35,599 bases of DNA, from positions 1 through 35,599 of the IMG/VR virus record IMGVR_UViG_3300009000_001139; one strand, given 5' to 3'. Both the position numbers and the translations under genes were made by a program. Positions 1,885 to 33,631 of this stretch are shown one piece after another. The notes below the pieces were generated by a model that was not told the DNA's origin, did not search any database, and saw only the letters and a list, made by a program, of their open reading frames with translations. Each line of letters begins with the position of its first letter. Position 1 is the stretch's first letter. The DNA is from a virus.

Positions 1885-3600
1885 ATGAGTTATACTAAGA
1901 AAGATTATTGTGAGAATACTATTGGTGACCCACCATATGGAGTGTGTAAGCAGGATAAATACCATCATTCAGAATTACACGTTGACCATATAGATGGTGA
2001 CACATCTAATAATGATATCTCAAATTTACAAACCATATGTTCAAATTGCCACGAACGAAAAACACATTTTATGGGAGACCACAAAACCAAGGGTAGAGGT
2101 AACATAACCCAAAACCCACAAACCTTTTCAGAGATTGTAGAATTCTTAGTTGAGATATTCAGTTCCGATGCGTATCAAGAATTAAGAAGGAGTATTCGTA
2201 GAAAGTATTTTATCAACCCATTCAAAAAAGCATATGGTAATGGTTTGGTAAATTGTCTACAAGGTGCAACTGGGTTTGGTAAAACGTATGGATTGTTTGT
2301 CGAGGCAGCACCATATCATTTTAGTCAAGGTGGTCGAGTTCATATTGCACTATCTCCAATGAGGGATTCACAGGGATATGATGAGATACGAAAGTATGTC
2401 AACAAACTTGCAGAATATGAAAAGAACGAACAACGACCAACACTATATCATAGTGACTTACCTGGTGGTATAAATTGGACTCGTGTTAAAAGTGATTTAG
2501 CAAATGGGGAGAATGTTACGATTGTAATGTCTGACCAATACTTTCATAATGAAGAGTACATACGACTTGCAACTGAAATCGTTGGTGAGTATAATACATT
2601 GATTACTCGCGATGAGGCAAGTTATGGTATGTTAAGTAGTTGGGAACTTGCAAAACAAAACAATGGTCATAAGTACCCACCAACTGCAAAATCTGCATAC
2701 TACAACAAATTTATGAAACTCCATAAAGCAGGTGCACATACATTCGGAATCACTGCGACTCCGACACGGGAAATGCAAGACTTAATGTTTGGTGCGGAGT
2801 GGAATATGGCAAACGAAATACCTAACTCTAATGAACTAATCGTATTTAGAAAATGGCATCGAAATCTAACTCTTGCAGATTGGAGTCACGATGACTATGG
2901 TGATAAAACTATTATGCCAACTGAACTCAATAAAATCTTTACATCAGTTGACTCCGAGCAATCAAAGGTGGATGAGTTTAATGAGAAGTATGGGTGTGGT
3001 CACATAAAACGAGAAAAGATAACTGCGTTAATTGTAGCACAAACTGACCAAGGTTCTCGTGAAAAAATTCGACCTACTGATATCGTGGAGTTTCTCAATA
3101 CACCAGAATCAAAAATGCCATCAAACCACACTTTGATAACTGCAACGGCTGAAGGTTGGAAAGAGTACGACTCAACTGGGAAAGAGATAAACTCGGGTGA
3201 TGGTGAGGAATATCAAGATAAGTTGAACAGCTCAGATGAAAAAGCACATTACTTAGTTGTTATGAACAAGGCTGTGTATGGTGTGAATATAAACACACTT
3301 GGGTTTCAATTATGGTTCAGACAATACCAAAACGAAAACGAAGATGGTGAGTCAATCACCAATTCAGCACAACAGGGGTTGGGTAGAATGAACCGAGTAA
3401 ATTTCTCGACTGAGAAAATCGTTCACCTTGCTAAGAACCACGGACCTCATGCAGTGTATGAGTATTTCTTATTTGCAGGTATTGGTTGTTTTGATGTGAA
3501 GGCCCCAAAGAGTCAACACTTTGAGACTGCGTTCTCTAACTTCAAAGAGAATCACGGAACTCACATAATGGATGCCCTCGGTTATTTATTTCAATACTAA
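1885..3600 (+). CDS. HNH endonuclease-SF2 helicase fusion protein
   Basis: A 571-residue protein in two parts. Residues about 5-65 form an HNH nuclease: H35 within HVDHIDGD, N47 in ISNLQ, H56 in CSNCHERK, with C52/C55 as one zinc knuckle and C9/C21 as possible partners. From about 120 it is a superfamily 2 helicase: Walker A GATGFGKT (127-134), a DEAS motif II (243-246), TATPT motif III (290-294) and QQGLGRMNR motif VI (496-504). Such helicases translocate on or unwind nucleic acid using ATP; the HNH part should cut DNA. The role could be repair or recombination (like T4 UvsW), host DNA attack, or a mobile nuclease that fused with a resident helicase. It has its own promoter and is followed directly by another. 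Confidence 0.85.
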   Translation: MSYTKKDYCENTIGDPPYGVCKQDKYHHSELHVDHIDGDTSNNDISNLQTICSNCHERKTHFMGDHKTKGRGNITQNPQTFSEIVEFLVEIFSSDAYQELRRSIRRKYFINPFKKAYGNGLVNCLQGATGFGKTYGLFVEAAPYHFSQGGRVHIALSPMRDSQGYDEIRKYVNKLAEYEKNEQRPTLYHSDLPGGINWTRVKSDLANGENVTIVMSDQYFHNEEYIRLATEIVGEYNTLITRDEASYGMLSSWELAKQNNGHKYPPTAKSAYYNKFMKLHKAGAHTFGITATPTREMQDLMFGAEWNMANEIPNSNELIVFRKWHRNLTLADWSHDDYGDKTIMPTELNKIFTSVDSEQSKVDEFNEKYGCGHIKREKITALIVAQTDQGSREKIRPTDIVEFLNTPESKMPSNHTLITATAEGWKEYDSTGKEINSGDGEEYQDKLNSSDEKAHYLVVMNKAVYGVNINTLGFQLWFRQYQNENEDGESITNSAQQGLGRMNRVNFSTEKIVHLAKNHGPHAVYEYFLFAGIGCFDVKAPKSQHFETAFSNFKENHGTHIMDALGYLFQY

Positions 3601-3979: not shown

Positions 3980-4702
3980 ATGACACCAAAAGTTGCAGTA
4001 GTCATTCCGGCACGATTCAAATCAAGTCGTTTACCAGGAAAACCTTTGATTAAACTCAAGGGTAAGGAAATGATAGTGAGGGTTGCTGAAATTGCTCAAG
4101 GGGCAGTTGGTAAGGAAAACGTATATGTTGCTACTGATACTTATGATATTGCAAGTGTGGTTGAAGGATATGGGTTCAATGTAATTATGACATCCGATAC
4201 TTGTATGACTGGCACGGATAGAGTTGCTGAAGCAGCCACTCAAATCGATGCTGATATGATTATCAATGTTCAAGGTGATGAACCATTACTAAACCCAAGT
4301 GATATTGTAAAGGTACGTGATGCTAAACTCAAGTACCCAAATCATATCATAAATTGTGTTGCACCTATGAATAGATTTGAGGATGGTGCTAATCCTAAGT
4401 TTGCTAAGATTGTATCTAACTTAGATAATGAGATGATGTATATATCACGTGCTCCTATCCCAGCAACAAAAGATGGTTCGTATTCAACACCTATGAAGAA
4501 TGTGTCTATATATGGATTCAATAAAGAACATTTAGAAGGGTTCACTTCAGTAAATGGTAGAACACCACTTGAAGCAATTGAGGATATTGAAACACTTAGG
4601 TTCTTAGAGTTGGGTTACAAAATTAAACTTATAGAAGTAAGTGGGGATTCATATTCAGTAGATTACCCCGAAGATATTAAAGTAGTAGAAGAATTATTAT
4701 AA
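3980..4702 (+). CDS. kdsB: 3-deoxy-manno-octulosonate cytidylyltransferase (CMP-KDO synthetase)
   Basis: A 240-residue nucleotidyltransferase that activates KDO with CTP to give CMP-KDO, the donor used to build the lipopolysaccharide inner core. The N-terminal signature VVIPARFKSSRLPGKPL (residues 7-23) holds the CTP-binding loop, and QGDEP (98-102) is the metal and sugar-binding motif. The length is close to the usual ~245-255. kdsA and a small HAD phosphatase lie 5 kb downstream in the same gene run, so the phage carries the enzymes needed from KDO-8-phosphate formation to CMP-KDO. No KDO transferase is visible. Known KdsB relatives act on similar sugars, so the exact sugar is inferred. Confidence 0.9.
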   Translation: MTPKVAVVIPARFKSSRLPGKPLIKLKGKEMIVRVAEIAQGAVGKENVYVATDTYDIASVVEGYGFNVIMTSDTCMTGTDRVAEAATQIDADMIINVQGDEPLLNPSDIVKVRDAKLKYPNHIINCVAPMNRFEDGANPKFAKIVSNLDNEMMYISRAPIPATKDGSYSTPMKNVSIYGFNKEHLEGFTSVNGRTPLEAIEDIETLRFLELGYKIKLIEVSGDSYSVDYPEDIKVVEELL

Positions 4703-4715
4703 TACCATTTAGTAG

Positions 4716-5600
4716 ATGAATACATTAGACAATCAATACCACACGTTACTCAAACGTGTATTAGATTATGGTATCCAAAAGGATGACCGAACTGGAACTG
4801 GAACACTCTCAGTATTTGGTGGTCAGTTCATTCACGATATGTCCGAAGGATTCCCACTCTTAACCACAAAGAAGATGGCAGTCAAAACTATGATGACTGA
4901 GTTGAAGTGGTTCTTAAAAGGAGATACCAATATCAAATACTTAGTTGATAATGGTTGTAACATCTGGAATGGCGATGCTTATAAGAATTATGAAAGATAT
5001 GCAATGGATAATTCTTATGGTGTTGATATCTTATCAATGGATGAGTTTATCAACGAAATCAAAACCAATGATGAGTTTGCTAAGAAGTGGGGTGAGTTAG
5101 GTCCTATCTATGGTAAACAATGGAGAGATTGGGATGGTACTGACCAAATCCAAAACCTCATCGATGCATTAAAAAATAATCCCGATTCTCGTAGACATAT
5201 AGTATCTGCTTGGAATGTGGGTGAGATGTACAATATGGTTCTACCACCGTGTCACTATGGATTTCAATGTTATGTATCTGATGGTAAGCTATCCCTAATG
5301 TGGAATCAGAGAAGTGTGGATACATTCTTAGGATTACCATTCAACATTGCATCATATGCTACATTACTCTTACTATTATGTGAAGAGACTGGATATCAAC
5401 CAGGTATGTTAATCGGAAATCTTGGTGACATACATATCTATAATAACCACATAGATGCAGTGAACGAACAAATGAGTAGAAGTTCATTTGAATTACCAAC
5501 CATTGAGTTCTCTAATGTAGATATTCTAAATGGTGAGTTTGATTATAAATTGAATGGGTACGAATCCCACCCAAGTATAAAAGCACCTTTGTCTAATTAA
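4716..5600 (+). CDS. thyA: Thymidylate synthase ThyA
   Basis: A 294-residue homologue of the classical folate-dependent thymidylate synthase, which methylates dUMP to dTMP with methylenetetrahydrofolate. Visible landmarks are DDRTGTGTLSVFG near the N terminus, the catalytic cysteine C179 in PPCHYGF, and NQRSVDTFLGLPFNIASYA followed by GDIHIYNNH, the dUMP and folate-binding core. Length and order are normal. It is a common phage gene that raises dTTP supply during replication. It begins 13 bp after kdsB. Confidence 0.95.
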   Translation: MNTLDNQYHTLLKRVLDYGIQKDDRTGTGTLSVFGGQFIHDMSEGFPLLTTKKMAVKTMMTELKWFLKGDTNIKYLVDNGCNIWNGDAYKNYERYAMDNSYGVDILSMDEFINEIKTNDEFAKKWGELGPIYGKQWRDWDGTDQIQNLIDALKNNPDSRRHIVSAWNVGEMYNMVLPPCHYGFQCYVSDGKLSLMWNQRSVDTFLGLPFNIASYATLLLLLCEETGYQPGMLIGNLGDIHIYNNHIDAVNEQMSRSSFELPTIEFSNVDILNGEFDYKLNGYESHPSIKAPLSN

Positions 5601-5614
5601 ATTGGAATTATAGT

Positions 5615-5773
5615 ATGACACACGAAGAAGAGATTGAAGAAATTCTATTTGAAGCATCAGCACACGGAATGATGATTGAAGTAATGGAATGGGCTAAGAA
5701 AGAAATGGAAGAGAATCCTAAATTAAGTAGAGTAGATGCGTATCATCGTGGATACTTAGAATGGTGTAAGTAA
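5615..5773 (+). CDS. Hypothetical 52-residue acidic protein
   Basis: Begins 14 bp after thyA and ends 1 bp before the next ATG. It encodes MTHEEEIEEILFEASAHGMM and finishes DAYHRGYLEWCK. Predicted to be helical, strongly acidic at the N terminus and without hydrophobic spans. Short helical proteins of this look are common in marine T4-like phages, but I cannot assign a family. Confidence 0.6.
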   Translation: MTHEEEIEEILFEASAHGMMIEVMEWAKKEMEENPKLSRVDAYHRGYLEWCK

Positions 5774-5774
5774 T

Positions 5775-5900
5775 ATGGTAGCAGTTATAATCGCGATAAT
5801 TATGTTGTCAATATTTGGTGTAGGTCTATATCAAATTTATTTAGATAACCAAGACAAGAAGAACCAATGCCCTTGTGGTGGTAATTGTAAATGTAAGTAA
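5775..5900 (+). CDS. 41-residue membrane peptide with cysteine cluster
   Basis: One transmembrane helix (VAVIIAIIMLSIFGVGLY, residues 2-19) followed by a polar linker and the C-terminal cluster CPCGGNCKCK, with four cysteines in CxC...CxC spacing. The cluster could bind a metal or Fe-S centre on one face of the membrane. Its TAA shares an A with the ATG of the sulfotransferase-like gene (TAATG), indicating coupling. The clear one-helix-plus-cysteine design makes a real product likely. Confidence 0.55.
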   Translation: MVAVIIAIIMLSIFGVGLYQIYLDNQDKKNQCPCGGNCKCK

Positions 5901-6541
5901 TGGTATATAATCGGTATGGGTTGGTATTCATTGCAATACCCAAATGTGCTACTACAAAAGTACACGAATTATTATCAAGCAAGGATTTAGATATTGAGGG
6001 GACGCACGAGCATATTCGGATGGTTGACTTAGAACATTCACACGAATGTCAAATGACTAACTACAACAAACACACCTTAATTAGATATCATGCATTTACT
6101 ATTGTAAGAAATCCATACGATAGAATATGGAGTGCTTGGAAACATTTAAACCTAAAGAACCAAACTGAGGGTGAGGATGGTATGATTGATAAGTTTCGGG
6201 AGTTTATAAAGACCGAACTAACCACTTGGTTTGGTAATCCAGATAAATTTGGATTAGAAAGTAACTATCACTTTATACCACAAGCTGATTGGATATATAG
6301 TAGAAGAAGATACCTGATAGTAGATACAGTAATGCGGTTTGAAACTTTACAAGAAGATTGGAAATCATTTAGTGAGTGGTACTCAGAGCAAACCGAAGGG
6401 CGATTAGAACTTCCGTGGTTATCACCTACTGATAAATCCAATGCAACCATATCAATAGATGAAGACCCATACGATGATGAGTGTCGTAGAATAGTTAAAA
6501 AATTATATTCATTAGATTTTAAATTACTTGATTATGAATAA
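5900..6541 (+). CDS. Sulfotransferase-family protein
   Basis: A 213-residue protein with the two PAPS-binding signatures of the sulfotransferase superfamily: the 5'-phosphosulfate loop PKCATTK (residues 14-20, after FIAI) and the 3'-phosphate motif VRNPYDRIWSAW (69-80). The arrangement resembles the carbohydrate sulfotransferase families, which move sulfate from PAPS to a sugar hydroxyl. The acceptor cannot be read from sequence. Among KDO genes and a secreted surface protein, a cell-surface glycan is the natural guess. The overlap with the upstream peptide gene suggests joint translation. Confidence 0.7.
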   Translation: MVYNRYGLVFIAIPKCATTKVHELLSSKDLDIEGTHEHIRMVDLEHSHECQMTNYNKHTLIRYHAFTIVRNPYDRIWSAWKHLNLKNQTEGEDGMIDKFREFIKTELTTWFGNPDKFGLESNYHFIPQADWIYSRRRYLIVDTVMRFETLQEDWKSFSEWYSEQTEGRLELPWLSPTDKSNATISIDEDPYDDECRRIVKKLYSLDFKLLDYE

Positions 6542-6731
6542 AAAATCAATGTCAGATAGAGATAATGTAGAACTCTACATCTTACCAGACGATGAAGAGC
6601 AAATGTTGGTTGACTTTATTATGGAGTTAAATGAAATAGATGGTTGGATAGACTTAGAACCAAATCCCGATGATTTACCTAAACTCCAACCGTGGCAAGA
6701 AGAAATCTTAAACAAAGAAATAAATAAATAA
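6534..6731 (+). CDS. Hypothetical 65-residue acidic protein
   Basis: Overlaps the end of the sulfotransferase-like gene by 8 bp. Starts at 6528 (TTG), 6534 and 6549 are all possible; I chose 6534. The product contains VELYILPDDEEQMLVDFI and a proline-rich acidic middle (DLEPNPDDLPKLQPWQEE). It is strongly acidic with no recognisable domain. Function unknown. Confidence 0.6.
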   Translation: MNKKSMSDRDNVELYILPDDEEQMLVDFIMELNEIDGWIDLEPNPDDLPKLQPWQEEILNKEINK

Positions 6732-6738
6732 TTTAGTG

Positions 6739-7047
6739 ATGTCAAACGAGAAACAATTTTATGCCGTGGTAAAGGTAAGGAAAGCTGAACTACTCAAACC
6801 TACCGATGCACAACTGATGTCTTACTACATAGACTATGGATACAATACCATAGAAGAAGTTGTAGAAGATTATGGTATGGAAGAGATGTTAAGAGAGTGG
6901 TACAACAATACCAACTTTACTTCTGAGTTTGGAGAACACCAACACAAATCAAATATCTTTCCTATCGATTGGGACTCCGATATGGAGCAGGTAGATATCA
7001 TTGCCAAAGAAGATTGGGAGGAAATTTATGATAACCACTATGTTTAA
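6739..7047 (+). CDS. Hypothetical 102-residue protein
   Basis: The start is ATG 6739 (MSNEKQFYAVVKV); a GTG one codon earlier is possible. The N-terminal strand pattern FYAVVKVRKAELL is followed by an acidic helical part. No family recognised. The end of this frame overlaps the next gene by 20 bp, where the SD for that gene (GGGAGG) is also located. Confidence 0.65.
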   Translation: MSNEKQFYAVVKVRKAELLKPTDAQLMSYYIDYGYNTIEEVVEDYGMEEMLREWYNNTNFTSEFGEHQHKSNIFPIDWDSDMEQVDIIAKEDWEEIYDNHYV

Positions 7048-7252
7048 AATTCTATTATATTATTTTCTTATAGGTTCAGTTCAACTTATTATTATGGATT
7101 TCTTCATCAACAAACTTGCTGAGTTAATGGATGATAAAGAACCCCTTACCAATAAGGAACGACTTATTGTATTAATCTTATGGCCAATCTATTCAATAGT
7201 CTTTTGGTTCAACTTTATTAAGTCTTTCTTTTGGGGAGATAACGAAAAATAA
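7028..7252 (+). CDS. 74-residue two-span membrane protein
   Basis: ATG 7028 lies 5 bp after GGAGG (7018-7022), one of the few clear Shine-Dalgarno sequences in the window. This decides the start over an upstream TTG. Two hydrophobic segments (FKILLYYFLIGSVQLIIMDF and LIVLILWPIYSIVFWFNFI) flank a short charged loop (DDKEPLTNKER). The ends place both termini on the same side. Function unknown; it lies in the surface-related island. Confidence 0.65.
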   Translation: MITTMFKILLYYFLIGSVQLIIMDFFINKLAELMDDKEPLTNKERLIVLILWPIYSIVFWFNFIKSFFWGDNEK

Positions 7253-7253
7253 A

Positions 7254-7415
7254 ATGAGTAAAGTAGTTTGTAGTATATGCAATTCAGAGAATACCGATGA
7301 TGATTTCGTTGAAGGTCACTTTGGTATTCTTCCAATTGCATTTTGTGTATGGTGTATGAGTTCCATATTAGATATGGCAGACCAATTAAATCCGTGTGAA
7401 TGTGAAGAGGAGTAG
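7254..7415 (+). CDS. 53-residue zinc-ribbon-like protein
   Basis: Encodes MSKVVCSICNSENTDDDF and later FCVWCMSS, two CxxC pairs separated by 21 residues, plus a terminal CECEEE. The spacing fits a small zinc ribbon. It ends 1 bp before the start of the T9SS-sorted protein, with GAGGAG of its last codons serving as that gene's likely ribosome binding site. Function unknown. Confidence 0.6.
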   Translation: MSKVVCSICNSENTDDDFVEGHFGILPIAFCVWCMSSILDMADQLNPCECEEE

Positions 7416-7416
7416 T

Positions 7417-9471
7417 ATGAAAAAGTTAATTACATTAATAGTAGTTTTAATGACCCTACCAATGATGGGGTCTCACCTATCGGGTGGTGATATCCAATAC
7501 CGATACATTGGAGACTCGACTGGAGTAGCGAGACAATATGAAGTGTTACTCAGAATCTATCGAGACCAAGCAGGTATTCCGATGGGTAATACTCAGACTG
7601 TGTACATTAACTCATCGTGTTATTCTCAACAAAGTTTAGTGGTAACACTACTACCAGGTTCGGGTGGAATAGCACCAACCTTATTTGATTGTGTAGTACC
7701 ATCATCAACAACAAAGACCTTAGAGATATACGCATATAAAGGGGTGGTAACACTACCTGGTAATTGTAGTAACTTCAACTTCTCTTGGAATCAATGTTGT
7801 AGACCTGGTGGTATCGATAACATAAATGCATCCAACGGATTTGGGTCTGATGGGTTTTACTTTGATGCTACATTAAATAACACTAAAGGTCAGAACTCTT
7901 CACCAATCTTTGTATCGGAGCCAGTTCGAGCATTTTGTGTGAACAATCCTTTCAATTGGAAGCAGACCGTGATTGAGGCAAATGGAGATTCAATCCACTT
8001 CTCAATGATTAAGTGTAGAGAGAATGCATATCCAGGTACGGATATAAACTTCGATGCAGGGTGGACTGCTACTCAACCAATCACATCAACCTACTTCAAT
8101 ATTAATCCATCAACAGGTCTGATTCAATTCTTACCTACGATGCAAGAGATTGATGTTGCTTCAGTATTGGTAGAAGAATATAGATACGATTCACTCTATG
8201 GTGTTTGGTATAAGATAGGTTCTGCTTCAAGGGATATGATGATTCAGATTGAAGCACAATGTTCTCCTGCCGTTATGGATGGGGTGGGTTTGGATTATGA
8301 TGCACCTGGTCATTATATTGATACAGCAACGGGATTACCAACGGTAGATTATAATTGTGGTGATACTGCAATTACAATGTACTTTGATATTCAATTGGAT
8401 TGCTTTACCATTTCACCTGATGGAACGGATTTTAGATTAACCTCACCCAATGGACAACCTTGGGCAATTAAAAACATTGTAGGTAATTGTAATGTAAATG
8501 GTGAGACTGATTCACTAACAATCATTCTAAACAAACCACTTGCAGTAAACGGAAAGTATTATCTATACTCTAAGGTTGGTAATGATGGTAACACACTATA
8601 CAACAAATGTGGTATTGGTATGGATGAGTTCGATACATTGGTTCTGAATGTAGAGGATTGTATTGACTTAGTAATGGAGTTAGATAACGTGACCATTGTA
8701 AATGACAACCACCCACAAGCCCAATGGTCGGTTGATACTAACTCATTCTTTGAAGACCAATTCGAAAGATATGAAATCCTTAGAGAAGATTTAGGATGGG
8801 GTATTGTAGGCAGTGTATACAATCCAAAGAAATATTTCTTCGATGATTTCTCAGCAACTAACGTAGATAATCAAATCTACAACTACAAAGTGTATATGGT
8901 CTACAACTCATTTAATATGGATACTACACGAGATGTACATTCTATTGTGTTGGAGTCTGATGGTGATTGTGATACGTTATGTTTCAATTGGAATAACTAC
9001 AATGGGTGGGATTCTGCTAAATACCACATCTTGATTAAAGACATTGTAAGTGGTAATTGGGATACCCTAACACCATTAGCAATTATGGATACTACATATT
9101 GTGGTTACTTCGATTCATTACCAGTTGGAATCAATACATTTAAAGTAGTCACTTCAAACGGAGTTGATACTTCTGAGAGTAATTACGTAACGTGCTTCCA
9201 ACCAACTCCACCTGAGATATCACTTCCAAATATTATTACACGTAATGGGGATGGGTTTAATGATATCTTATATATCAATCACCTCGACCTTTACGATGTT
9301 AAGAAGTTAACAATCTACAATAGGTGGGGCACTCCAGTCTACGAAAGTGATGATTACCAAAACGATTGGGATGGTGGTGATGTTGCTGATGGTGTTTACT
9401 TCTATGTATTAGATTTACAAAAGGGTAATAGTGTTGGTGCTTGTTATGGAACTTTAACAATTATACGATGA
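7417..9471 (+). CDS. Secreted surface protein with T9SS gliding-motility-type C-terminal domain
   Basis: A 684-residue protein starting at ATG 7417, just after GAAGAGGAG. Residues 1-19 are a signal peptide (KKLITLIVVLMTLPMM). The N-terminal region starting SHLSGGDIQYRYIG and including SWNQCCRPGGIDNI matches the opening domain seen in many Bacteroidota gliding-motility-associated proteins. The last ~85 residues carry the type B T9SS sorting domain hallmarks: NGDGFND (610-616), IYNRWGTPVYES (NRWG at 635-638), DWDGG and GVYFYVLDL. The family is exported by Sec and then the type IX system to the cell surface. It ends in an ATGA overlap with kdsA. I infer display on the infected host or release outside; its target is unknown. 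Such a gene in a phage is unusual and was probably taken from a host. Confidence 0.88.
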   Translation: MKKLITLIVVLMTLPMMGSHLSGGDIQYRYIGDSTGVARQYEVLLRIYRDQAGIPMGNTQTVYINSSCYSQQSLVVTLLPGSGGIAPTLFDCVVPSSTTKTLEIYAYKGVVTLPGNCSNFNFSWNQCCRPGGIDNINASNGFGSDGFYFDATLNNTKGQNSSPIFVSEPVRAFCVNNPFNWKQTVIEANGDSIHFSMIKCRENAYPGTDINFDAGWTATQPITSTYFNINPSTGLIQFLPTMQEIDVASVLVEEYRYDSLYGVWYKIGSASRDMMIQIEAQCSPAVMDGVGLDYDAPGHYIDTATGLPTVDYNCGDTAITMYFDIQLDCFTISPDGTDFRLTSPNGQPWAIKNIVGNCNVNGETDSLTIILNKPLAVNGKYYLYSKVGNDGNTLYNKCGIGMDEFDTLVLNVEDCIDLVMELDNVTIVNDNHPQAQWSVDTNSFFEDQFERYEILREDLGWGIVGSVYNPKKYFFDDFSATNVDNQIYNYKVYMVYNSFNMDTTRDVHSIVLESDGDCDTLCFNWNNYNGWDSAKYHILIKDIVSGNWDTLTPLAIMDTTYCGYFDSLPVGINTFKVVTSNGVDTSESNYVTCFQPTPPEISLPNIITRNGDGFNDILYINHLDLYDVKKLTIYNRWGTPVYESDDYQNDWDGGDVADGVYFYVLDLQKGNSVGACYGTLTIIR

Positions 9472-10274
9472 TTGATTCAGTAAAAATAAAAGATGGTATA
9501 GTCATTGGAAAGTCTACCCCATTTGTTCTAATAGCAGGACCTTGTGTTATAGAGAGTGCAGAACACACATTTCATATGGCGAGTGAGATTAAAAAAATCA
9601 CTAATAGATTGGGGATACCATATATCTTTAAAGCATCCTTTGATAAAGCAAATCGGACACGATTGGAAAATTATAGAGGAGTTTCCATTGATGTTGCCAT
9701 TGAGGTATTTACTAAGATTCGTAACGAATTAAAAATTCCAATTACTACCGACATCCACGAACCGTGGCAGGCAGATGCATTGAAAGACTACATTGACCTA
9801 ATACAAATACCAGCATTTCTATGTAGACAAACCGACCTATTAGTTGCTGCAGCTAAGACTGGGTTGCCAGTCAATATCAAAAAAGCACAATTTGTAAATG
9901 GGGTTGATATGGAACGTGCTGTCAATAAAGTTATTCAGAGTGGAAATGATAATGTAGTTCTTACTGAACGTGGTAACACGTTTGGGTATGGTGATTATGT
10001 TGTGGATATGAGAAACCTTGTAACTATGAGAGACTACGCTCCTGTTATTTTCGATGCAACCCACTCGGTCCAAAAGGGGTGTTCGGGTGGAAGTAGTGGG
10101 TCTAATAGACATTTCATAGAACCACTATCTAAAGCTGCAGTTGCAGTTGGGGTTGATGGTTTGTTCTTGGAGACTCACGATGACCCGACCAATGCACTAT
10201 CGGATGGGACAAGTTCTATACCATTAAATCAATTAGAAGAAATGTTAAATAATATATGTAAAGTTATTGGATAA
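9468..10274 (+). CDS. kdsA: 3-deoxy-8-phosphooctulonate synthase (KDO-8-P synthase)
   Basis: A 268-residue enzyme that condenses phosphoenolpyruvate with arabinose 5-phosphate to KDO 8-phosphate. Motifs in order: LIAGPCVIES (residues 21-30), FKASFDKANR, TTDIHEPW, QIPAFLCRQTDLL, NIKKAQFV, FGYGDYVVDM, VIFDATHSVQ and LFLETHDDP. Cysteine 26 in GPC marks the metal-dependent class; the E. coli type has Asn there. Length is normal. The start ATG 9468 overlaps the TGA of the T9SS protein, so the two are translated together, and its TAA overlaps the start of the HAD phosphatase gene. DAHP synthase is related, but the FDKANR and AFLCRQTDL motifs favour KdsA. Confidence 0.92.
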   Translation: MIDSVKIKDGIVIGKSTPFVLIAGPCVIESAEHTFHMASEIKKITNRLGIPYIFKASFDKANRTRLENYRGVSIDVAIEVFTKIRNELKIPITTDIHEPWQADALKDYIDLIQIPAFLCRQTDLLVAAAKTGLPVNIKKAQFVNGVDMERAVNKVIQSGNDNVVLTERGNTFGYGDYVVDMRNLVTMRDYAPVIFDATHSVQKGCSGGSSGSNRHFIEPLSKAAVAVGVDGLFLETHDDPTNALSDGTSSIPLNQLEEMLNNICKVIG

Positions 10275-12839: not shown

Positions 12840-13763
12840 ATGAATAAACCAATAACATATGCATACTTGGAGACTACAAACTATTGTAATCTTCAATGTT
12901 CGTTTTGCAATAGGGATGAGGTTATTGGTGCTTTACAGCATATGCCTTTAACTAAGTGGGGTGAGTTGTTAGATAGTATCAAGCACCATCCAATTAAAGA
13001 AGCTAAACTGATGGGTATGGGTGAACCTATGTTACATCCTCAATTCGATGAGGTGTGTCGTATGTTCAAGGAAACATTCCCAGACGCATTTTTAATTGTA
13101 GCCACTAATTGTCAATATCCAATCCGTGAGGGTTCTAAAATGAGAACCAAGTTTGAGAATTGTATGAACTATATTGACTTGTTGTATTTCAGTATTGATG
13201 GATATATGGAATCATACGAACGAGATAGGTCTCCAGCAAAATGGAGTAAATTAATTTCGTTCTTGGATGATTTTAAAAATGTAGATAGAAAGACTTGTAG
13301 AGTCACTTGTAACTATGTTGTTAATCCAGATAACGTAACGGACATCCAAACTATTTACGATGAGATTGTAGTTCCTTATAATCTTGTAGAGTATCGTTTG
13401 AATATTGCACAAAATTGGTCTGAAGATGAATCAATGCCAGGTGGGTATACTCAAGAACAAATTCAATACCTAAAAGACAATTGGAGTTCCAATATCAAAG
13501 GCAAGTCTGAGTGGGATTACGAAGATTGCTTCTGGGTTAATGAAGGATTGTATACCACAGTGGAAGGTGATGTTAAGATGTGTGCTTTGAATACGGGTGC
13601 GGATTCTTTTGGTAATCTATTTGAATCAAGTATTGAAGACATTCGTGAGTCCGATGATTTCCAAAATGTAAAACGTGGGTGTAATACAAATAACCCTACA
13701 TCACATTGTAAGAATTGTTCGTATAAAGAATTAGCACCAATGCTATCTGAACTCGGTGTGTAA
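12840..13763 (+). CDS. Radical SAM protein with SPASM-like C terminus (1)
   Basis: A 307-residue radical SAM enzyme. C16, C20 and C23 (TTNYCNLQCSFCNRDE) form the CxxxCxxC site for the 4Fe-4S cluster that splits S-adenosylmethionine. GMGEPML is the following SAM-contact motif. The C terminus holds further cysteines (GDVKMCAL; GCNTNN; HCKNCSY) in a SPASM-like arrangement for extra clusters. This group includes enzymes that modify peptides, sugars and alcohols by radical chemistry; the substrate is not visible. It is the first gene of a compact block to 18575, and the next gene starts directly after its stop. The start uses AAAGGATAAGTA before ATG. Confidence 0.85.
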   Translation: MNKPITYAYLETTNYCNLQCSFCNRDEVIGALQHMPLTKWGELLDSIKHHPIKEAKLMGMGEPMLHPQFDEVCRMFKETFPDAFLIVATNCQYPIREGSKMRTKFENCMNYIDLLYFSIDGYMESYERDRSPAKWSKLISFLDDFKNVDRKTCRVTCNYVVNPDNVTDIQTIYDEIVVPYNLVEYRLNIAQNWSEDESMPGGYTQEQIQYLKDNWSSNIKGKSEWDYEDCFWVNEGLYTTVEGDVKMCALNTGADSFGNLFESSIEDIRESDDFQNVKRGCNTNNPTSHCKNCSYKELAPMLSELGV

Positions 13764-14735
13764 ATGAGAAAGTTCAACCCATCGGTATCACATAATAAGT
13801 TAAGACTACACTCTGCTGAACGAACTACGGAGTGGGAACGATATGTGTTTGATGATTTTATTTCATCAATAAAAGATACCGATGTTAGGTATTACCCAAA
13901 CGTAGATGAGGTGCGTTCGCAACTTAAAGAGTTCTACGACTTATCACCATCAATGGATTTGATTGTAGGTGCAGGTAGTGATAGATGTAATAAATATTTC
14001 TTTGAACTACATCGTGAAAAACACATTGTGTTATCAGAACCGTGCTTTGGTATGTATGATGTATATTCAAATATGATGGATATGCCTACTACTAAAGTAC
14101 CATATCAGTTTGGAAAGTTTGATGTAAAGAACACGATTCGTAGTATTACAAAAGATAGTGTTGTTGTATTATCAAACCCATCATCACCCATTGGGGATGT
14201 TATATCAAAAGGTGACTTGATTAAGATACTAATGTGTGGTGTTCCTACTTTGGTAGATGAGGCTTATATTGAATTCTCTGATATTGATAGTGCCGTTGGA
14301 TTGATTGACCGATTCCCTAACCTATATGTAACACGAACGATGTCTAAGGCAATGGGTTCTGCTGGTGTTAGGGTTGGTGTTATTATTTCATCAAATTCAA
14401 ATATAGAAATTGTGTCTCAGTTTAGAGATATGTATGAAATTGGAGGCTTATCAATGAGATGGGTTCAGTCAATTATAAAAAATAAAGATAGTGTATCACA
14501 TTACATTAATCAAGTAAAGTCGACTAAACTAACTTTAGCAAAACTACTTATAGAACACGGATACCAAGTATTTGATGGCAGTTGCAATTGGATTCACATA
14601 AGAAGTGATTTACCAATTACACTACCAAGTACAATGGTGTTTAGAACAAATTGTGAAATACCTGGAGACTACAATTCAGATTGGATTAGACTTCAAGTGT
14701 CAACTGATATAACTGATTATAATTTTTTATTTTAA
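13764..14735 (+). CDS. PLP-dependent aminotransferase, class I/II (HisC-like)
   Basis: A 323-residue aminotransferase-fold protein related to histidinol-phosphate aminotransferase. SNPSSPIGD (N138-P139), VDEAYIEF (D165, Y168) and TMSKAMGSAGVRVG (K195, the PLP-binding lysine) are all intact, so it should be active. Length is a little under the usual ~350, mostly at the N terminus. HisC relatives act on amino-phosphates, amino acids or keto acids, and also as C-O or decarboxylating enzymes. The start is immediately after the first radical SAM gene; the next gene follows 1 bp after its stop. The substrate is probably set by the pathway of this block. Confidence 0.85.
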   Translation: MRKFNPSVSHNKLRLHSAERTTEWERYVFDDFISSIKDTDVRYYPNVDEVRSQLKEFYDLSPSMDLIVGAGSDRCNKYFFELHREKHIVLSEPCFGMYDVYSNMMDMPTTKVPYQFGKFDVKNTIRSITKDSVVVLSNPSSPIGDVISKGDLIKILMCGVPTLVDEAYIEFSDIDSAVGLIDRFPNLYVTRTMSKAMGSAGVRVGVIISSNSNIEIVSQFRDMYEIGGLSMRWVQSIIKNKDSVSHYINQVKSTKLTLAKLLIEHGYQVFDGSCNWIHIRSDLPITLPSTMVFRTNCEIPGDYNSDWIRLQVSTDITDYNFLF

Positions 14736-14736
14736 T

Positions 14737-15372
14737 ATGTACAGATACGACATAATTAATAAGATAATAAAAGAAAACGGATTTAAGTCATACCTTGAAA
14801 TTGGGGTATGTAATCCTGCGGATTGTTTTGATAAGATTGAATGTGAGAATAAGGATAGTGTAGACCCTGGTGTTGAGTTTACTGACAATCCTGTTAAGTA
14901 TCCTGTAACATCAGATTACTTTTTCTCTCTTTTAAACAATAATGATTTGGATTTACATCCCGATTATAAATGGGATGTTATTTTCATAGATGGTCTACAC
15001 ATATCCACTCAGGTAATGAAGGATGTTTTAAATTCACTACAACATTTAAGTTGGAATGGTTATATATTATTACACGATTGTAATCCACCTACCATTGATA
15101 TGGCACGAGAGGATTATAAAATAAATGGTGTGTATAAGCCGTGGAATGGCACTACTTGGAAAGTTATGTATTGGGTCAGAACACATCGTGGTGATTTACA
15201 ATCGTGTGTTGTGGATACCGATTGGGGTATTGGTATTATCCGTAAGGGAATGTCATTGCCTATATCATTCGACAATCCATTTTATGAGTATAACCAAATG
15301 TCGAGTAATCGTGTAAATGATTTGGGATTAATTTCGATTAATGAGTTGGACTCTTGGTTGAATGGAAAGTAA
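14737..15372 (+). CDS. Class I SAM-dependent methyltransferase-fold protein
   Basis: A 211-residue protein with YLEIGVCNPADCF (residues 19-31) as a modified SAM-binding loop and WDVIFIDGLHIS as the downstream acidic and metal-binding strand. LSWNGYILLHDCNPPT completes the pattern. This resembles the Methyltransf_24 group common in marine phage and polysaccharide clusters, which mostly methylates sugar hydroxyls. The glycine loop is less glycine-rich than in classical methyltransferases. The end overlaps the next gene by 11 bp. Confidence 0.75.
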   Translation: MYRYDIINKIIKENGFKSYLEIGVCNPADCFDKIECENKDSVDPGVEFTDNPVKYPVTSDYFFSLLNNNDLDLHPDYKWDVIFIDGLHISTQVMKDVLNSLQHLSWNGYILLHDCNPPTIDMAREDYKINGVYKPWNGTTWKVMYWVRTHRGDLQSCVVDTDWGIGIIRKGMSLPISFDNPFYEYNQMSSNRVNDLGLISINELDSWLNGK

Positions 15373-15649
15373 GAAAGATTACATCACTAAACTATGGGGT
15401 CGTAAATCACCATCGGAAATTGTGCTGGTGATGTACAATCTTATAGAAAACTCTAAGTGGAGTAAGTTAGAAAAGGATAGAACCTATTCTGTGATGAAGG
15501 GTATAATTGCATACCTCGATAGGGGTGATGATTTGCTATCACATCATAGAGACTATCTACATAACGAATGGCAATTGGCGTGGGAAGAACAAAAAGACAA
15601 TTCAGTTAAACAAGAAATAAAAGAGTGGTTATTAGAACCACCATTTTAA
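15362..15649 (+). CDS. Hypothetical protein in the radical SAM block
   Basis: A 95-residue helical protein (PSEIVLVMYNLIENSKWSKL; WQLAWEEQ) without membrane segments. Its start lies inside the methyltransferase end and the following gene begins 2 bp after the stop. No family recognised. Its conserved position inside a biosynthetic-looking block suggests a small partner or carrier, but there is no phosphopantetheine-type serine motif or core-peptide-like sequence. Confidence 0.65.
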   Translation: MESKKDYITKLWGRKSPSEIVLVMYNLIENSKWSKLEKDRTYSVMKGIIAYLDRGDDLLSHHRDYLHNEWQLAWEEQKDNSVKQEIKEWLLEPPF

Positions 15650-15651
15650 CT

Positions 15652-16593
15652 ATGATTACATTTAATATAGATGACTTTTGGAATACATTATCAGATGAAC
15701 ATAAATTAGGTGGTTATGAGACCATCAAGGAGTTGGGTGCTTCAAATAATCACAACGACCTTATGTATGAGTATCGAAATACTAACTACTTTATAGAATT
15801 AGCAAACGATACACCTGATGTGATTCCTGAAGAGGGTTATATGAAAACATTCGATGACATCGGGGCTTGGTTATTGGATTTTGAAAGGTCAAACCCAAAT
15901 GTAACATATGATGTTGTTAAAACAGTATCACTAAAGTGGGCAGAACACTTATTAGCATCTGGTAGTTTCGGTGTTTTTGATAGATATCGATTTACTCCAA
16001 ATCATTTAAATAAAAAGCAGGATACATATGATGTGTTGACTTATACGATTGACTTGTATAATAACATAGTATCCGATGAGTATCCAAGTGGTATTGATTA
16101 CCATACGATATGTTCTGGCCTTTGGACACTATGTGATGCTGGACAAACTGATATGGTAATTACTATTGGTGAAATGTTTAAAACATTGGGAGAAGACATT
16201 GAGTCGGAGTTTACCAAGAAATATACAAAACCACCAATGAGGTCAATCGATATGCTTGAGAGATTTATTATGAGTTTGTCCTGGCCTATTGCACAGGCAT
16301 ACAAACATCAAGGTGATTTTGATAATGCAAAGAGGATATATCGTGATATTATGAATCTTATGTTTATTGAAAAAACACGAAGTGGTATTCATTATTATTG
16401 TGGTAACAATCGTGGATTAGAAGCAGGGTTAGAATTATATAAATTAGAACCAACTGAAGAGGTTAGGTCTTGGTGTTTTAACCAATGGAAGCGTTTGACC
16501 GAATTAGATATTGAGAATACAACCGAGTCTCTGAACGAAAGACTTATGATATCTTATATGTTCTTGAAGGTTATATACAATGTGGATTTGTAA
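15652..16593 (+). CDS. Hypothetical helical-repeat protein in the radical SAM block
   Basis: A 313-residue protein of unknown family, starting at ATG 15652 directly after the upstream stop; an upstream TTG frame extension overlaps the previous gene and is unlikely. It is mostly helical, with segments such as GLWTLCDAGQTDMVITIGEM and IAQAYKHQGDFDNAKRIYRD that look like TPR or alpha/alpha-barrel repeats. It resembles in style the helical toroid enzymes acting on glycans, but I see no catalytic signature. The TAATG overlap ties it to the second radical SAM gene. Confidence 0.7.
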   Translation: MITFNIDDFWNTLSDEHKLGGYETIKELGASNNHNDLMYEYRNTNYFIELANDTPDVIPEEGYMKTFDDIGAWLLDFERSNPNVTYDVVKTVSLKWAEHLLASGSFGVFDRYRFTPNHLNKKQDTYDVLTYTIDLYNNIVSDEYPSGIDYHTICSGLWTLCDAGQTDMVITIGEMFKTLGEDIESEFTKKYTKPPMRSIDMLERFIMSLSWPIAQAYKHQGDFDNAKRIYRDIMNLMFIEKTRSGIHYYCGNNRGLEAGLELYKLEPTEEVRSWCFNQWKRLTELDIENTTESLNERLMISYMFLKVIYNVDL

Positions 16594-17543
16594 TGAAGAT
16601 ACAAAGAGCAGTAATAGAAATCAATGGAGGGTGTAACTATTCTTGTGAAATGTGCCCACAAACCAATCCAGGAAGACACAAGGGGTTTTTGAAAAAGATG
16701 CCGTTGGGTATGTTTGAGGATTTGGTAAAACAATCAGTAGACGCAGGTGCCACTGTTATCAATCTTGAAGGTAGTGGTGAGGCAACCTTACTAAACAATC
16801 TACCAGACTATATTCGTATCGTTAAGAAGTATGGTGCTAAAGCAGATATATGTTCTAATGCATTCAGATTTCGTGGTCAGTTTATGAAGGATTGTATTGA
16901 TGCTGGATTAGATAGGTTACGGATTTCAGTAATTGGGTATGATAAAGAAACATATAATAAGTGGATGAATCGTAATGCATTTGAATACATCAAACAAAAT
17001 GCAAAAGATGCGATTGAGTATATAAAAGAAACTAACTCCACTTGTAGGATAGCATCGTATCATTTAATATTGGATAACGACCAATCGGATTATGAGGTTG
17101 AGCAATATAGAAAAAACTTTATAGATGAAGTAGGTACATTTGCAGAGATTTGGAAGATGCACAATTGGAGTGGTGCTTATGAAAATCCAAACGAAAGAAA
17201 AGGTGGTGTAAAGACTTGTGGTAGACCATTCGCACCTGAGATTACGATTCGTGCAGGTGGTCTTGATGGAAAGACCGGGGCAGTTCATCCGTGTTGTCAA
17301 GTACTTGGTAGAGATGAAGAAGCAGTGTTGGGTCACACATCAGAGAACACCATTGAGGAAGTTTGGAATGGTGAGGAATTTAATAAATTAAGAGAGGGGC
17401 ATACGACTGGAAATTACCCATCGTATTGTAAGGATTGTGATTTTTTAGTTGATGACCCTGAAATATTAGTATACACAAATTACGAAAGAGATGTTCATAA
17501 ACTATATGGGACAACCTTTAGTTTAGAAGATTATAGAAAATAG
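16593..17543 (+). CDS. Radical SAM protein with SPASM-like C terminus (2)
   Basis: A 316-residue radical SAM protein only distantly like the one at 12840. The cluster site is C14, C18, C21 (GGCNYSCEMCPQTNPG). GSGEATL stands where GxGEP is usual, so the proline is lost. The C-terminal half has HPCCQVLG and YCKDCDF cysteine groups, again SPASM-like. VINLEGSGEA and LRISVIGYD are typical barrel strands. The ATG overlaps the previous stop. Two different SPASM enzymes in one block imply two successive radical steps or two substrates. Confidence 0.85.
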   Translation: MKIQRAVIEINGGCNYSCEMCPQTNPGRHKGFLKKMPLGMFEDLVKQSVDAGATVINLEGSGEATLLNNLPDYIRIVKKYGAKADICSNAFRFRGQFMKDCIDAGLDRLRISVIGYDKETYNKWMNRNAFEYIKQNAKDAIEYIKETNSTCRIASYHLILDNDQSDYEVEQYRKNFIDEVGTFAEIWKMHNWSGAYENPNERKGGVKTCGRPFAPEITIRAGGLDGKTGAVHPCCQVLGRDEEAVLGHTSENTIEEVWNGEEFNKLREGHTTGNYPSYCKDCDFLVDDPEILVYTNYERDVHKLYGTTFSLEDYRK

Positions 17544-17545
17544 TT

Positions 17546-18187
17546 ATGGAATTATATTTAGACTCAGTTAATAAGGAAGAGATTAACGAAGCACTTAGTA
17601 TTGGTATTATTAGTGGACTGACTACCACACCTACGTTCATGCATCGTGAAGGAATTGTAGATGTTGATTCGGCAATTTTAGAACTATCTAAGAAAGTACC
17701 CATCTTACAAATTGAGGCATTGGGTAGAACTTCCGAGGAGATTATTGATGAAGCATATAGGCAAGAGTCATTAGGACTATCACGTGATACCACGGTTTAT
17801 AAAATTCCAATGTCAATGGAGGGGGTTAAAGCATGTAGCTATTTAACCAACTTGGATTTTAAAGTTAATTTACATTTAGTGTATACATTACAACAAGCAT
17901 ATATGGCAATGGAAGCAGGTGCGACCTATGTATGTCCGTTAGTCGGAAGACTTCAAGACCAAGGTGGTGATGGATTGGGGTTGGTTAAAGCAATGGTTGA
18001 TGTTACTAAAGAGTATGGGTATGATACGAAGGTAATGTTTAGTTCAGTACGTACATCACAACACGTAAAGGAAGCACTTAAAGCAGGAGCACATACAATT
18101 ACTATTCCGTGGAAGATTATGAAGCAACTAACTGAGCATCACTTAACTACGGTACATACAGAGCAATTTTTTCAACATACTAAGTAA
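17546..18187 (+). CDS. Transaldolase/fructose-6-phosphate aldolase-like protein
   Basis: A 213-residue TIM-barrel aldolase of the short TalC/FSA group. Visible are LYLDS (D6), GLTTTPT (24-30), the Schiff-base lysine K86 in VYKIPMS, and the barrel-end pattern AGATYVCPLVGRLQDQGGDG. Length matches the family (~215-220). Compared from memory with E. coli FsaA, the Asn of TTNP is Thr28 and the residues near T109 and Y131 are changed (NLHLVY, CPLVGR), so the substrate may differ. Phage TalC is known from cyanophages, where it diverts sugar flux. Here it is 2 bp after a radical SAM gene, so it may act in this pathway. Confidence 0.82.
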   Translation: MELYLDSVNKEEINEALSIGIISGLTTTPTFMHREGIVDVDSAILELSKKVPILQIEALGRTSEEIIDEAYRQESLGLSRDTTVYKIPMSMEGVKACSYLTNLDFKVNLHLVYTLQQAYMAMEAGATYVCPLVGRLQDQGGDGLGLVKAMVDVTKEYGYDTKVMFSSVRTSQHVKEALKAGAHTITIPWKIMKQLTEHHLTTVHTEQFFQHTK

Positions 18188-32699: not shown

Positions 32700-33197
32700 A
32701 TGGATACAAAGAAACTAATCAAAGCAATTCAACTCATTATTAAAGAAGAGGTTAGGAAGGAAGTGGCTAAAGAAAAGAAAGCACTTCGTAAATCTCTTAT
32801 GAACGAAATGAAAAAATCTCAACCACAAGTGGTGGAAAGAGACCCATTGGATATTGAGCACGTTTTTGAACAAAGAACTCAACAACCAACTCAACCTGCT
32901 AAATCATTTACTAACAATTCTATGTTGAATGAAATGTTAAATGAAACTGCTCAAGGTGGTGAGTGGAGAAGTATCAACTCAAACGGAGTTGGTGGTGGTA
33001 TGTTTAACTCATCACAAGCACAAGCATTTGGTGGTGGCATGATGAATCAGCAACCACAAGTTTTACAAACAGCAGAAGGTCGTGCCGTATCTACTGAGCA
33101 ACTACAACAAACTGAAGCAGGTCAAGCAGTGGTAAATGCACTAACACGTGACTATTCTAAGTTGATGAAACATATGAATGATAAGAAGGGTAAATAA
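32700..33197 (+). CDS. Hypothetical structural-region protein
   Basis: A 165-residue protein. The N-terminal third is a basic helix (KEEVRKEVAKEKKALRKSLM), the middle is glutamine and glycine rich (GGGMFNSSQAQAFGGGMMNQ), and the end is helical and basic. The composition suggests a flexible scaffold or baseplate accessory. It lies between the spike and gp25 and overlaps gp25 by one base (TAATG). TATTTATA occurs at 32689-32696, directly before the ATG. Confidence 0.65.
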   Translation: MDTKKLIKAIQLIIKEEVRKEVAKEKKALRKSLMNEMKKSQPQVVERDPLDIEHVFEQRTQQPTQPAKSFTNNSMLNEMLNETAQGGEWRSINSNGVGGGMFNSSQAQAFGGGMMNQQPQVLQTAEGRAVSTEQLQQTEAGQAVVNALTRDYSKLMKHMNDKKGK

Positions 33198-33631
33198 TGC
33201 CAATTCGTAAAGAGTATAAGAGAAATCCATTAGACCTTAAACCAAACAAGGCTATTGGTGTAAAGTTACCATTAGGTGGTGACCCTATATTTCAATTGTC
33301 TTATACTACCGAAGACCAAGCATTATCCAATCTCAAAAACTTATTATTGACTCGTAAGGGTGAGAGACCATTTCAACCATTATTTGGTTCAGACATTTTC
33401 TCATTACTATTTGAACAAATAACAGAAAATCTAAATACGGAGTTAGAAGACTCAATCAGAGATGATATTAGATTTTGGTTACCTTACATTATAGTAGATG
33501 ATGTGAGTGTTGATACTGAAGAAGATAATAACAAAGTATCAATCACATTGAGAGTTAGAGTTACCGAAAATGGTGCAAATACACAAATAACAATACTCGT
33601 TACCGAACAAGGTAATGTTTCTATTGTCTGA
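33197..33631 (+). CDS. 25: Baseplate wedge protein gp25-like
   Basis: A 144-residue member of the gp25/lysozyme-like wedge family. The signature LKNLLLTRKGERPFQPLFGS then DIFSLLFEQ is the family core (LLT..GER...P.FGSDL...LFE). T4 gp25 is about 132 residues. It joins gp6 and gp53 in the baseplate wedge of contractile tails. gp6 follows after 9 bp, the standard order. Confidence 0.92.
   Translation: MPIRKEYKRNPLDLKPNKAIGVKLPLGGDPIFQLSYTTEDQALSNLKNLLLTRKGERPFQPLFGSDIFSLLFEQITENLNTELEDSIRDDIRFWLPYIIVDDVSVDTEEDNNKVSITLRVRVTENGANTQITILVTEQGNVSIV

Follow-up and report, generated by a model that had tools for sequence, protein, structure and literature searches.

A phage gene for a predicted cargo protein of the type IX secretion system (T9SS), here termed cargo B, lies at 7417..9471 (+ strand) of a 35.6-kb virus record, IMG/VR IMGVR_UViG_3300009000_001139, which is a fragment of a phage genome and was analysed over its whole length of 35,599 nucleotides (the window). 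The window sequence and its list of open reading frames (ORFs) give a product of 684 residues, assigned as a phage-encoded T9SS type B cargo protein from its ORF, its CHU_C domain, its viral homologues and the purifying selection acting on it. Sequence comparison confirms cargo B as a genuine, conserved phage gene under purifying selection. Its product very probably reaches the cell surface through the host T9SS, and in this way large Bacteroidota phages probably cause infected cells to present a viral protein there.

Export tags and domain architecture of cargo B

Cargo B is composed of a predicted signal peptide, an N-terminal region, a pair of fibronectin type III (FN3)-like domains and a type B T9SS C-terminal sorting domain (CTD). 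The N terminus reads as a Sec signal peptide (MKKLITLIVVLMTLPMMG, followed by SHLSGG; approximately residues 1–18, 7417..7470, + strand) without a lipobox cysteine. It carries a KK pair and then a hydrophobic stretch, residues 2–17, that is modelled as a single helix, and this hydrophobic N terminus is kept in every complete phage copy. The type B CTD (9220..9429, + strand) was identified by Pfam CHU_C (PF13585), which matches residues 602–671 of 684 with an E-value of 9.7e-21 and 74.1 bits against a cut-off of 27 (79.7 bits and E 4.9e-24 in the search of the record). The same model matches all 30 aligned relatives and exceeds its cut-off in 25 of the 25 viral records tested. The motifs NGDGFND, NRWG, DWDGG and GVYFYV are present in the window copy and largely conserved in relatives. 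A first-pass annotation, made from the DNA alone, had read the protein as carrying a signal peptide, an N-terminal region typical of Bacteroidota T9SS cargoes and a complete type B CTD, and each of these assignments is borne out here. It had also proposed a profile check, for which the outcome is divided: CHU_C is well over its cut-off, and TIGR04131 matches the window copy with an E-value of 1.5e-8 at 34.7 bits, 0.3 below its cut-off of 35. Across the family, TIGR04131 matches 30 of 30 members at E ≤ 0.01, the best with an E-value of 1.1e-13.

The N-terminal region (residues 19–415, 7471..8661, + strand) is made up of tandem immunoglobulin (Ig)-like β-sandwiches, as delineated by alignments and the structure model; it is the most conserved part of cargo B in most pairs, with the lowest non-synonymous divergence (dN). 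Its profile matches 18 of 296 sampled Bacteroidota genomes at E ≤ 1e-20, and bacterial relatives over the full length are only 25–32% identical. The two FN3-like domains (residues 416–598, 8662..9210, + strand) distinguish two forms of the protein: a form of approximately 684–690 residues that contains the pair, and a form of approximately 521–532 residues, represented by the related records L003, L036 and L044 among others, in which alignment shows a short proline-rich linker in its place (L and G numbers denote related viral records or loci). The signal peptide, N-terminal region and CTD are common to both forms.

The structure model of cargo B is all-β (pLDDT 82, pTM 0.50). Residues 416–509 superpose on FN3 domains with a Z-score of 11.6 and a deviation of 2.0 Å over 88 residues, and the top Foldseek matches of the model are mainly Ig/FN3-type chains. 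The whole-chain matches are generic and have low TM-scores, defining the fold class and not a function; a closer fold may exist for the N-terminal domains, which were searched as part of the whole chain. Profile and fold searches recognised no enzyme domain in cargo B, PHROGs holds no family for the protein, and sequence searches of the PDB with the protein and with the alignment returned only a chance-like match to a ribosomal protein. The proteins of the family contain 11–18 cysteines each, which fits an extracytoplasmic location.

Cargo B forms a conserved phage family

Relatives of cargo B are present in 36 other viral contigs of up to 173 kb, at 53–80% identity; 3 of these were found by a protein scan of IMG/VR, and all 36 by an alignment scan. 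Several homologues are near-identical, and 22 sequences were aligned with the window copy. The window itself contains two baseplate wedge genes, a gp25-like gene (33197–33631, + strand; PF04965, E 3.2e-15) and a gp6-like gene (33641–35554, + strand; phrog_219, E 1.1e-23), by which the contig is assigned to a contractile-tailed phage. Among related records, gp25 was found in 6 of 25 and a tail sheath in 3 of 25, whereas a terminase was found in just 2 of 21, both the largest, which is attributed to the contigs being fragments.

The ratio of dN to synonymous divergence (dS) is approximately 0.07–0.25 for cargo B; the window copy and L001 differ by dN 0.134 and dS 1.93, and L001 and L002 by dN 0.108 and dS 1.02. 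A maximum-likelihood tree of 49 rows puts the 23 phage copies on one side of a branch with support of 99/100 and a long stem, and the bacterial T9SS cargoes on the opposite side. This phylogeny, which the first-pass annotation had called for, thus places the phage copies in one clade apart from bacterial homologues. The simplest history consistent with the tree is one old acquisition from an adhesin-type T9SS cargo of Bacteroidota, followed by diversification inside phages, within the limits set by sampling and the long bacterial branches. INPHARED contains no relative of cargo B, only CTD-only matches in uncultured phage records. Separately, 2–3 sites in each of two uncultured phages of approximately 640 kb (LR745206.1 and LR756502.1) match type B CTDs, so T9SS cargo may occur in megaphages.

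Genomic context of cargo B

The placement of cargo B in an operon between a zinc-ribbon gene and kdsA, noted in the first-pass annotation, is supported by the gene boundaries. The upstream zinc-ribbon-like ORF (53 residues, 7254..7415, + strand), assigned to the same operon from its sequence and spacing, ends 1 base before the start of cargo B, and kdsA, encoding KDO-8-phosphate synthase (9468..10274, + strand; TIGR01362, 353 bits, cut-off 314), overlaps the end of cargo B as ATGA, starting at 9468. The G+C content of the cargo B stretch equals that of its flanks. The thymidylate synthase gene thyA (4716..5600, + strand; PF00303, E 1.8e-95), a kdsB-like gene (3980–4702) and, between the latter and kdsA, a sulfotransferase-like gene (5900–6541) complete the neighbourhood in the window.

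In L002 and L003, too, a thyA gene precedes cargo B by no more than approximately 6 kb; ORF lists show it in both, with PF00303 confirmed in L002. In L036, L037 and L042, cargo B is positioned directly between nrdB and nrdA, the genes for the small and large chains of ribonucleotide reductase, and genes for a 5′–3′ exonuclease and a DnaB-like protein lie upstream (each neighbouring family verified in one or two loci of the three). Such neighbours in nucleotide metabolism and replication point to expression early or in the middle of infection, together with replication genes rather than with virion assembly, the timing being suggested by gene order.

In approximately 10 of 18 loci, the gene immediately upstream of cargo B reads, by a simple rule, as a secreted-protein or lipoprotein gene. 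Related secreted proteins occupy this position in L044 (6394–7944), L043 (6455–7963), L003 (6819–7997) and L050; those of the L044 group match a type A CTD weakly and are possibly a third T9SS cargo. In L041, the position is taken by an 845-residue TonB-dependent receptor (5398–7932; barrel E 1e-16, plug E 1e-12) encoded on a viral contig. The signal peptide-bearing gene just upstream in L001 and L002 was considered as a candidate PorP/SprF shuttle, and Pfam and NCBIfam gave nothing convincing.

Several other features of the window were observed. The kdsB-like gene and kdsA occur together on the phage, as if supplying CMP-Kdo for synthesis of a surface glycan. Positions 12840–18187 encode two radical SAM proteins, a HisC-like aminotransferase and a transaldolase/fructose-6-phosphate aldolase-like protein, an uncharacterised biosynthetic set. 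A 571-residue ORF at 1885–3600 has an HNH domain in its N-terminal part and a remainder that appears helicase-like by eye, an unusual fusion.

A cohesin-bearing cargo and its cassette in related phages

A gene with a type A CTD (PF18962) is present in 14 of the 25 records that contain cargo B, 13 of them over the cut-off; none was found in the window record, which is a fragment. The main type A CTD genes form one homologous family, cargo A, of approximately 630–650 residues (for example L044:13767–15698, its homologues in L194–L272, and G002:C1 at approximately 100.6–102.6 kb). Cargo A consists of a signal peptide, dockerin-like repeats and a cohesin domain (E 1.3e-9) preceding the type A CTD. 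A scan of IMG/VR returned 318 cargo A-related stretches in viral contigs, and the composition of the surrounding cassette was counted in the best 79 of them. Downstream of cargo A, these 79 loci encode a small transmembrane-like protein (77 loci), a CsgG-like lipoprotein (74) and a barrel-like secreted protein of 425–600 residues (69), the C-terminal part of which is conserved. Often the cassette also contains a protein of 265–401 residues. In some loci this protein is identified as a C-type lectin (E 1e-14 to 1e-18), and elsewhere it has a GEVED domain instead. The lectin and GEVED proteins end alike, with a dockerin-like region containing a D-x-N-x-D loop; the label ‘dockerin-like’ denotes a calcium-loop pattern and weak profile matches (E 0.01–0.5; 5 of 12 to dockerins). 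The model of the CsgG-like protein has a pLDDT of only 63, and its top 25 fold matches are all CsgG structures (best E 9.5e-9); by sequence, the protein had no Pfam match above the cut-off, and a search for CsgG gave one chance-like match.

The cassette was found in approximately 70 of the 79 inspected loci (within L194–L272, for example L269:6001–11693) and in one cultured phage, Immutovirus immuto (L155:7930–13271). It is also carried by G002, a close relative of the window phage. In immuto, the cassette comprises gp013–gp018 with the lectin gene first, and cargo A is divided between two genes, gp014 and gp015 (L155:9001–10825), of which gp015 has its own signal peptide, a cohesin domain and a type A CTD (Por_Secre_tail); the pair represents a natural fission of a T9SS cargo. 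Two different phages, L003 (6254–6844) and immuto (L155:7338–7916), encode a secreted non-specific DNA/RNA endonuclease next to their T9SS cargo genes.

The arrangement suggests a T9SS-anchored cohesin that displays phage lectins. A wider proposal, that a lineage of Bacteroidota phages runs a T9SS surface programme in which cargo B is joined by cohesin-bearing cargo A docking lectins through their dockerin-like ends, with the CsgG-fold protein aiding export, so that the infected cell wears a virus-specified coat, is speculative and on balance unlikely.

Proposed mechanism and alternative explanations

During infection, the predicted signal peptide would route cargo B through Sec, and its type B CTD would then direct it to the host T9SS translocon. 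A PorP/SprF-like shuttle of the host would take it over, leaving an Ig/FN3 rod exposed on the surface of the infected cell. The remodelled surface would then no longer permit adsorption of rival phages, through either shielding or displacement of host T9SS adhesins from their shuttles. Taken whole, this account, in which a T9SS-exported phage cargo remodels the surface of the infected cell, most likely against rival phages, has about an even chance of being correct.

The first-pass annotation had proposed that the phage uses the host T9SS to display or release its protein. This is the natural reading because cargo B carries both tags, for Sec and for T9SS export; the proposal left unmentioned the need for a host shuttle. 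The purposes that it listed, masking of receptors, exclusion of other phages, an effect on gliding and help with release, are candidates that the present evidence does not tell apart. No PorP_SprF gene was found in any of 25 phage records at E ≤ 1, so cargo B is an orphan type B cargo that would need to borrow a shuttle from the host. In Flavobacterium johnsoniae, PorP/SprF-like shuttles, not PorV, handle type B CTDs, and 3 of 12 type B cargoes are orphans that have one shuttle in common (PMC12618676); an adjoining PorP/SprF gene is therefore usual, not defining. The CTD of a type B cargo also determines its final location in that species (PMC12618676), and type B cargoes may in addition be anchored by PorP-like proteins (PMC9143113). 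Retention of cargo B on the surface, rather than release, appears likely.

A change to the surface, with cargo B shielding the cell, mediating adhesion or competing for shuttles, is the most economical function, and the other envelope and surface genes carried by the same phages count in its favour. Excluding rival phages is a usual motive for phages to alter the host surface. For that reason, and because Bellas et al. (2020) suggested it, exclusion or shielding is ranked first among the benefits, as a tentative assignment somewhat short of an even chance. Several points weigh against the favoured account. The host T9SS is deduced from the cargo B tag itself, TIGR04131 falls marginally short of its cut-off in the window copy, and INPHARED yielded no cultured phage with cargo B, which was found in metagenomic contigs only. 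Rapid variation might be expected of a shield, whereas the N-terminal part shows strong conservation, and no direct sign of exclusion was seen.

The same export could instead serve ‘sibling capture’, in which the protein acts as an adhesin, attaching infected cells to their sisters or to surfaces and so bringing progeny into contact with new hosts, a use proposed earlier for the curli genes of pelagimyophages (PMC7029224). The adhesin-like string of Ig/FN3 domains in cargo B would suit this role, as would the C-type lectin and cohesin-bearing T9SS cargo that related phages also encode; however, no ligand-binding domain was recognised in cargo B, and no clumping was seen with phage Melnitz, which has curli pore genes (PMC9004378). 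We consider this the less likely use of a displayed cargo B. Still less probable is that cargo B is a decoy substrate, filling T9SS translocons and PorP/SprF shuttles and so blocking host adhesin export, stopping gliding and removing receptors, with any surface role of its own secondary. As an orphan without its own shuttle in 25 records, cargo B would compete for those of the host, and type B CTD fusions in F. johnsoniae are exported only when the cognate shuttle is co-expressed (PMC12618676). A decoy would need only the CTD, whereas conservation in the protein is highest across its N-terminal 400 residues.

Explanations that dispense with export fare worse. Phage tail proteins often contain Ig/FN3 domains, and such domains appear among the fold matches; cargo B could on that basis be a virion protein decorating the tail or capsid, its CTD a remnant. 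The signal peptide in all complete copies, the CTD in 25 of 25 records and neighbours that belong to nucleotide metabolism and not to a structural block (thyA and nrd genes, besides kdsA) make this highly improbable. The family is ultimately bacterial in origin, as would be host DNA joined to the contig by assembly error or captured recently and neutrally. That the gene is present in 37 viral contigs, the window included, in one phage clade (99/100), with dN/dS well below 1, matching G+C content and a tight operon with an ATGA overlap, reduces this explanation to a negligible chance, and the chimera that the first-pass annotation had raised as a possible refutation is itself refuted for practical purposes by these comparisons.

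Comparison with known systems

Phages that display their own proteins on the surface of a Gram-negative host are seldom known, and use of the T9SS by a phage was found reported only once, for one phage. The conservation of the cargo B family implies that the strategy is under selection within a large-phage lineage and is no oddity. Several questions are testable now: which host shuttle accepts type B cargo of foreign origin, whether display through the T9SS brings about superinfection exclusion, and whether receptors are lost or changed in infected gliding bacteria; the presence of the cohesin cassette in a cultured phage offers an experimental way in. In the literature, searched with incomplete coverage, no account was found of a phage-conserved family of type B cargoes or of the cohesin–lectin cassette, and no paper describing the immuto cassette. 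An entry in BFVD for an uncultured phage bears the name of the gliding-motility CTD, and the domain has thus been seen in phage data before.

To the knowledge of the first-pass annotation, such a phage system had not been described before, which does not hold: ‘Cryophage’ carries three type A T9SS cargo genes, for which superinfection exclusion was proposed among other uses (Bellas et al. 2020, PMC7468147). Like cargo B, the Cryophage cargoes are phage-encoded, bear a T9SS sorting domain and are thought to use the host system (PMC7468147). They are variable genes of one phage, with type A CTDs (PF18962/TIGR04183) on an endoglucanase, a GH39 protein and a PA14 protein, whereas cargo B has a type B CTD and no recognised enzyme domain and is conserved across a phage lineage. 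The principle is therefore known from Cryophage; new are the type B tag, the conserved phage family and the accompanying cassette with its cohesin, CsgG-fold and lectin proteins.

The type B cargoes of Bacteroidota (PF13585/TIGR04131), such as SprB and Fjoh_3952, resemble cargo B in their signal peptide, adhesin-like domains and terminal CHU_C domain. Cargo B differs from them in being phage-borne, in its size of approximately 520–690 residues, in forming its own clade and in lacking a PorP/SprF gene in the 25 records. The cultured phage immuto (NC_055915, host Flavobacterium sp. LMO8), compared over gp012–gp018, encodes the type A cargo gp015 within a cassette that also occurs in phages with cargo B; its CTD is of the other type, its genes are annotated as hypothetical, lectin and cohesin proteins, and it has no cargo B homologue. 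Pelagimyophages and phage Melnitz, which are T4-like, also carry an outer-membrane secretion component, curli CsgG/CsgF (PMC7029224, PMC9004378). These phages supply the pore of a type VIII system, whereas cargo B would be a substrate of the host type IX system, and the CsgG-fold protein of cargo B relatives, unlike that of the curli phages, adjoins a T9SS cargo.
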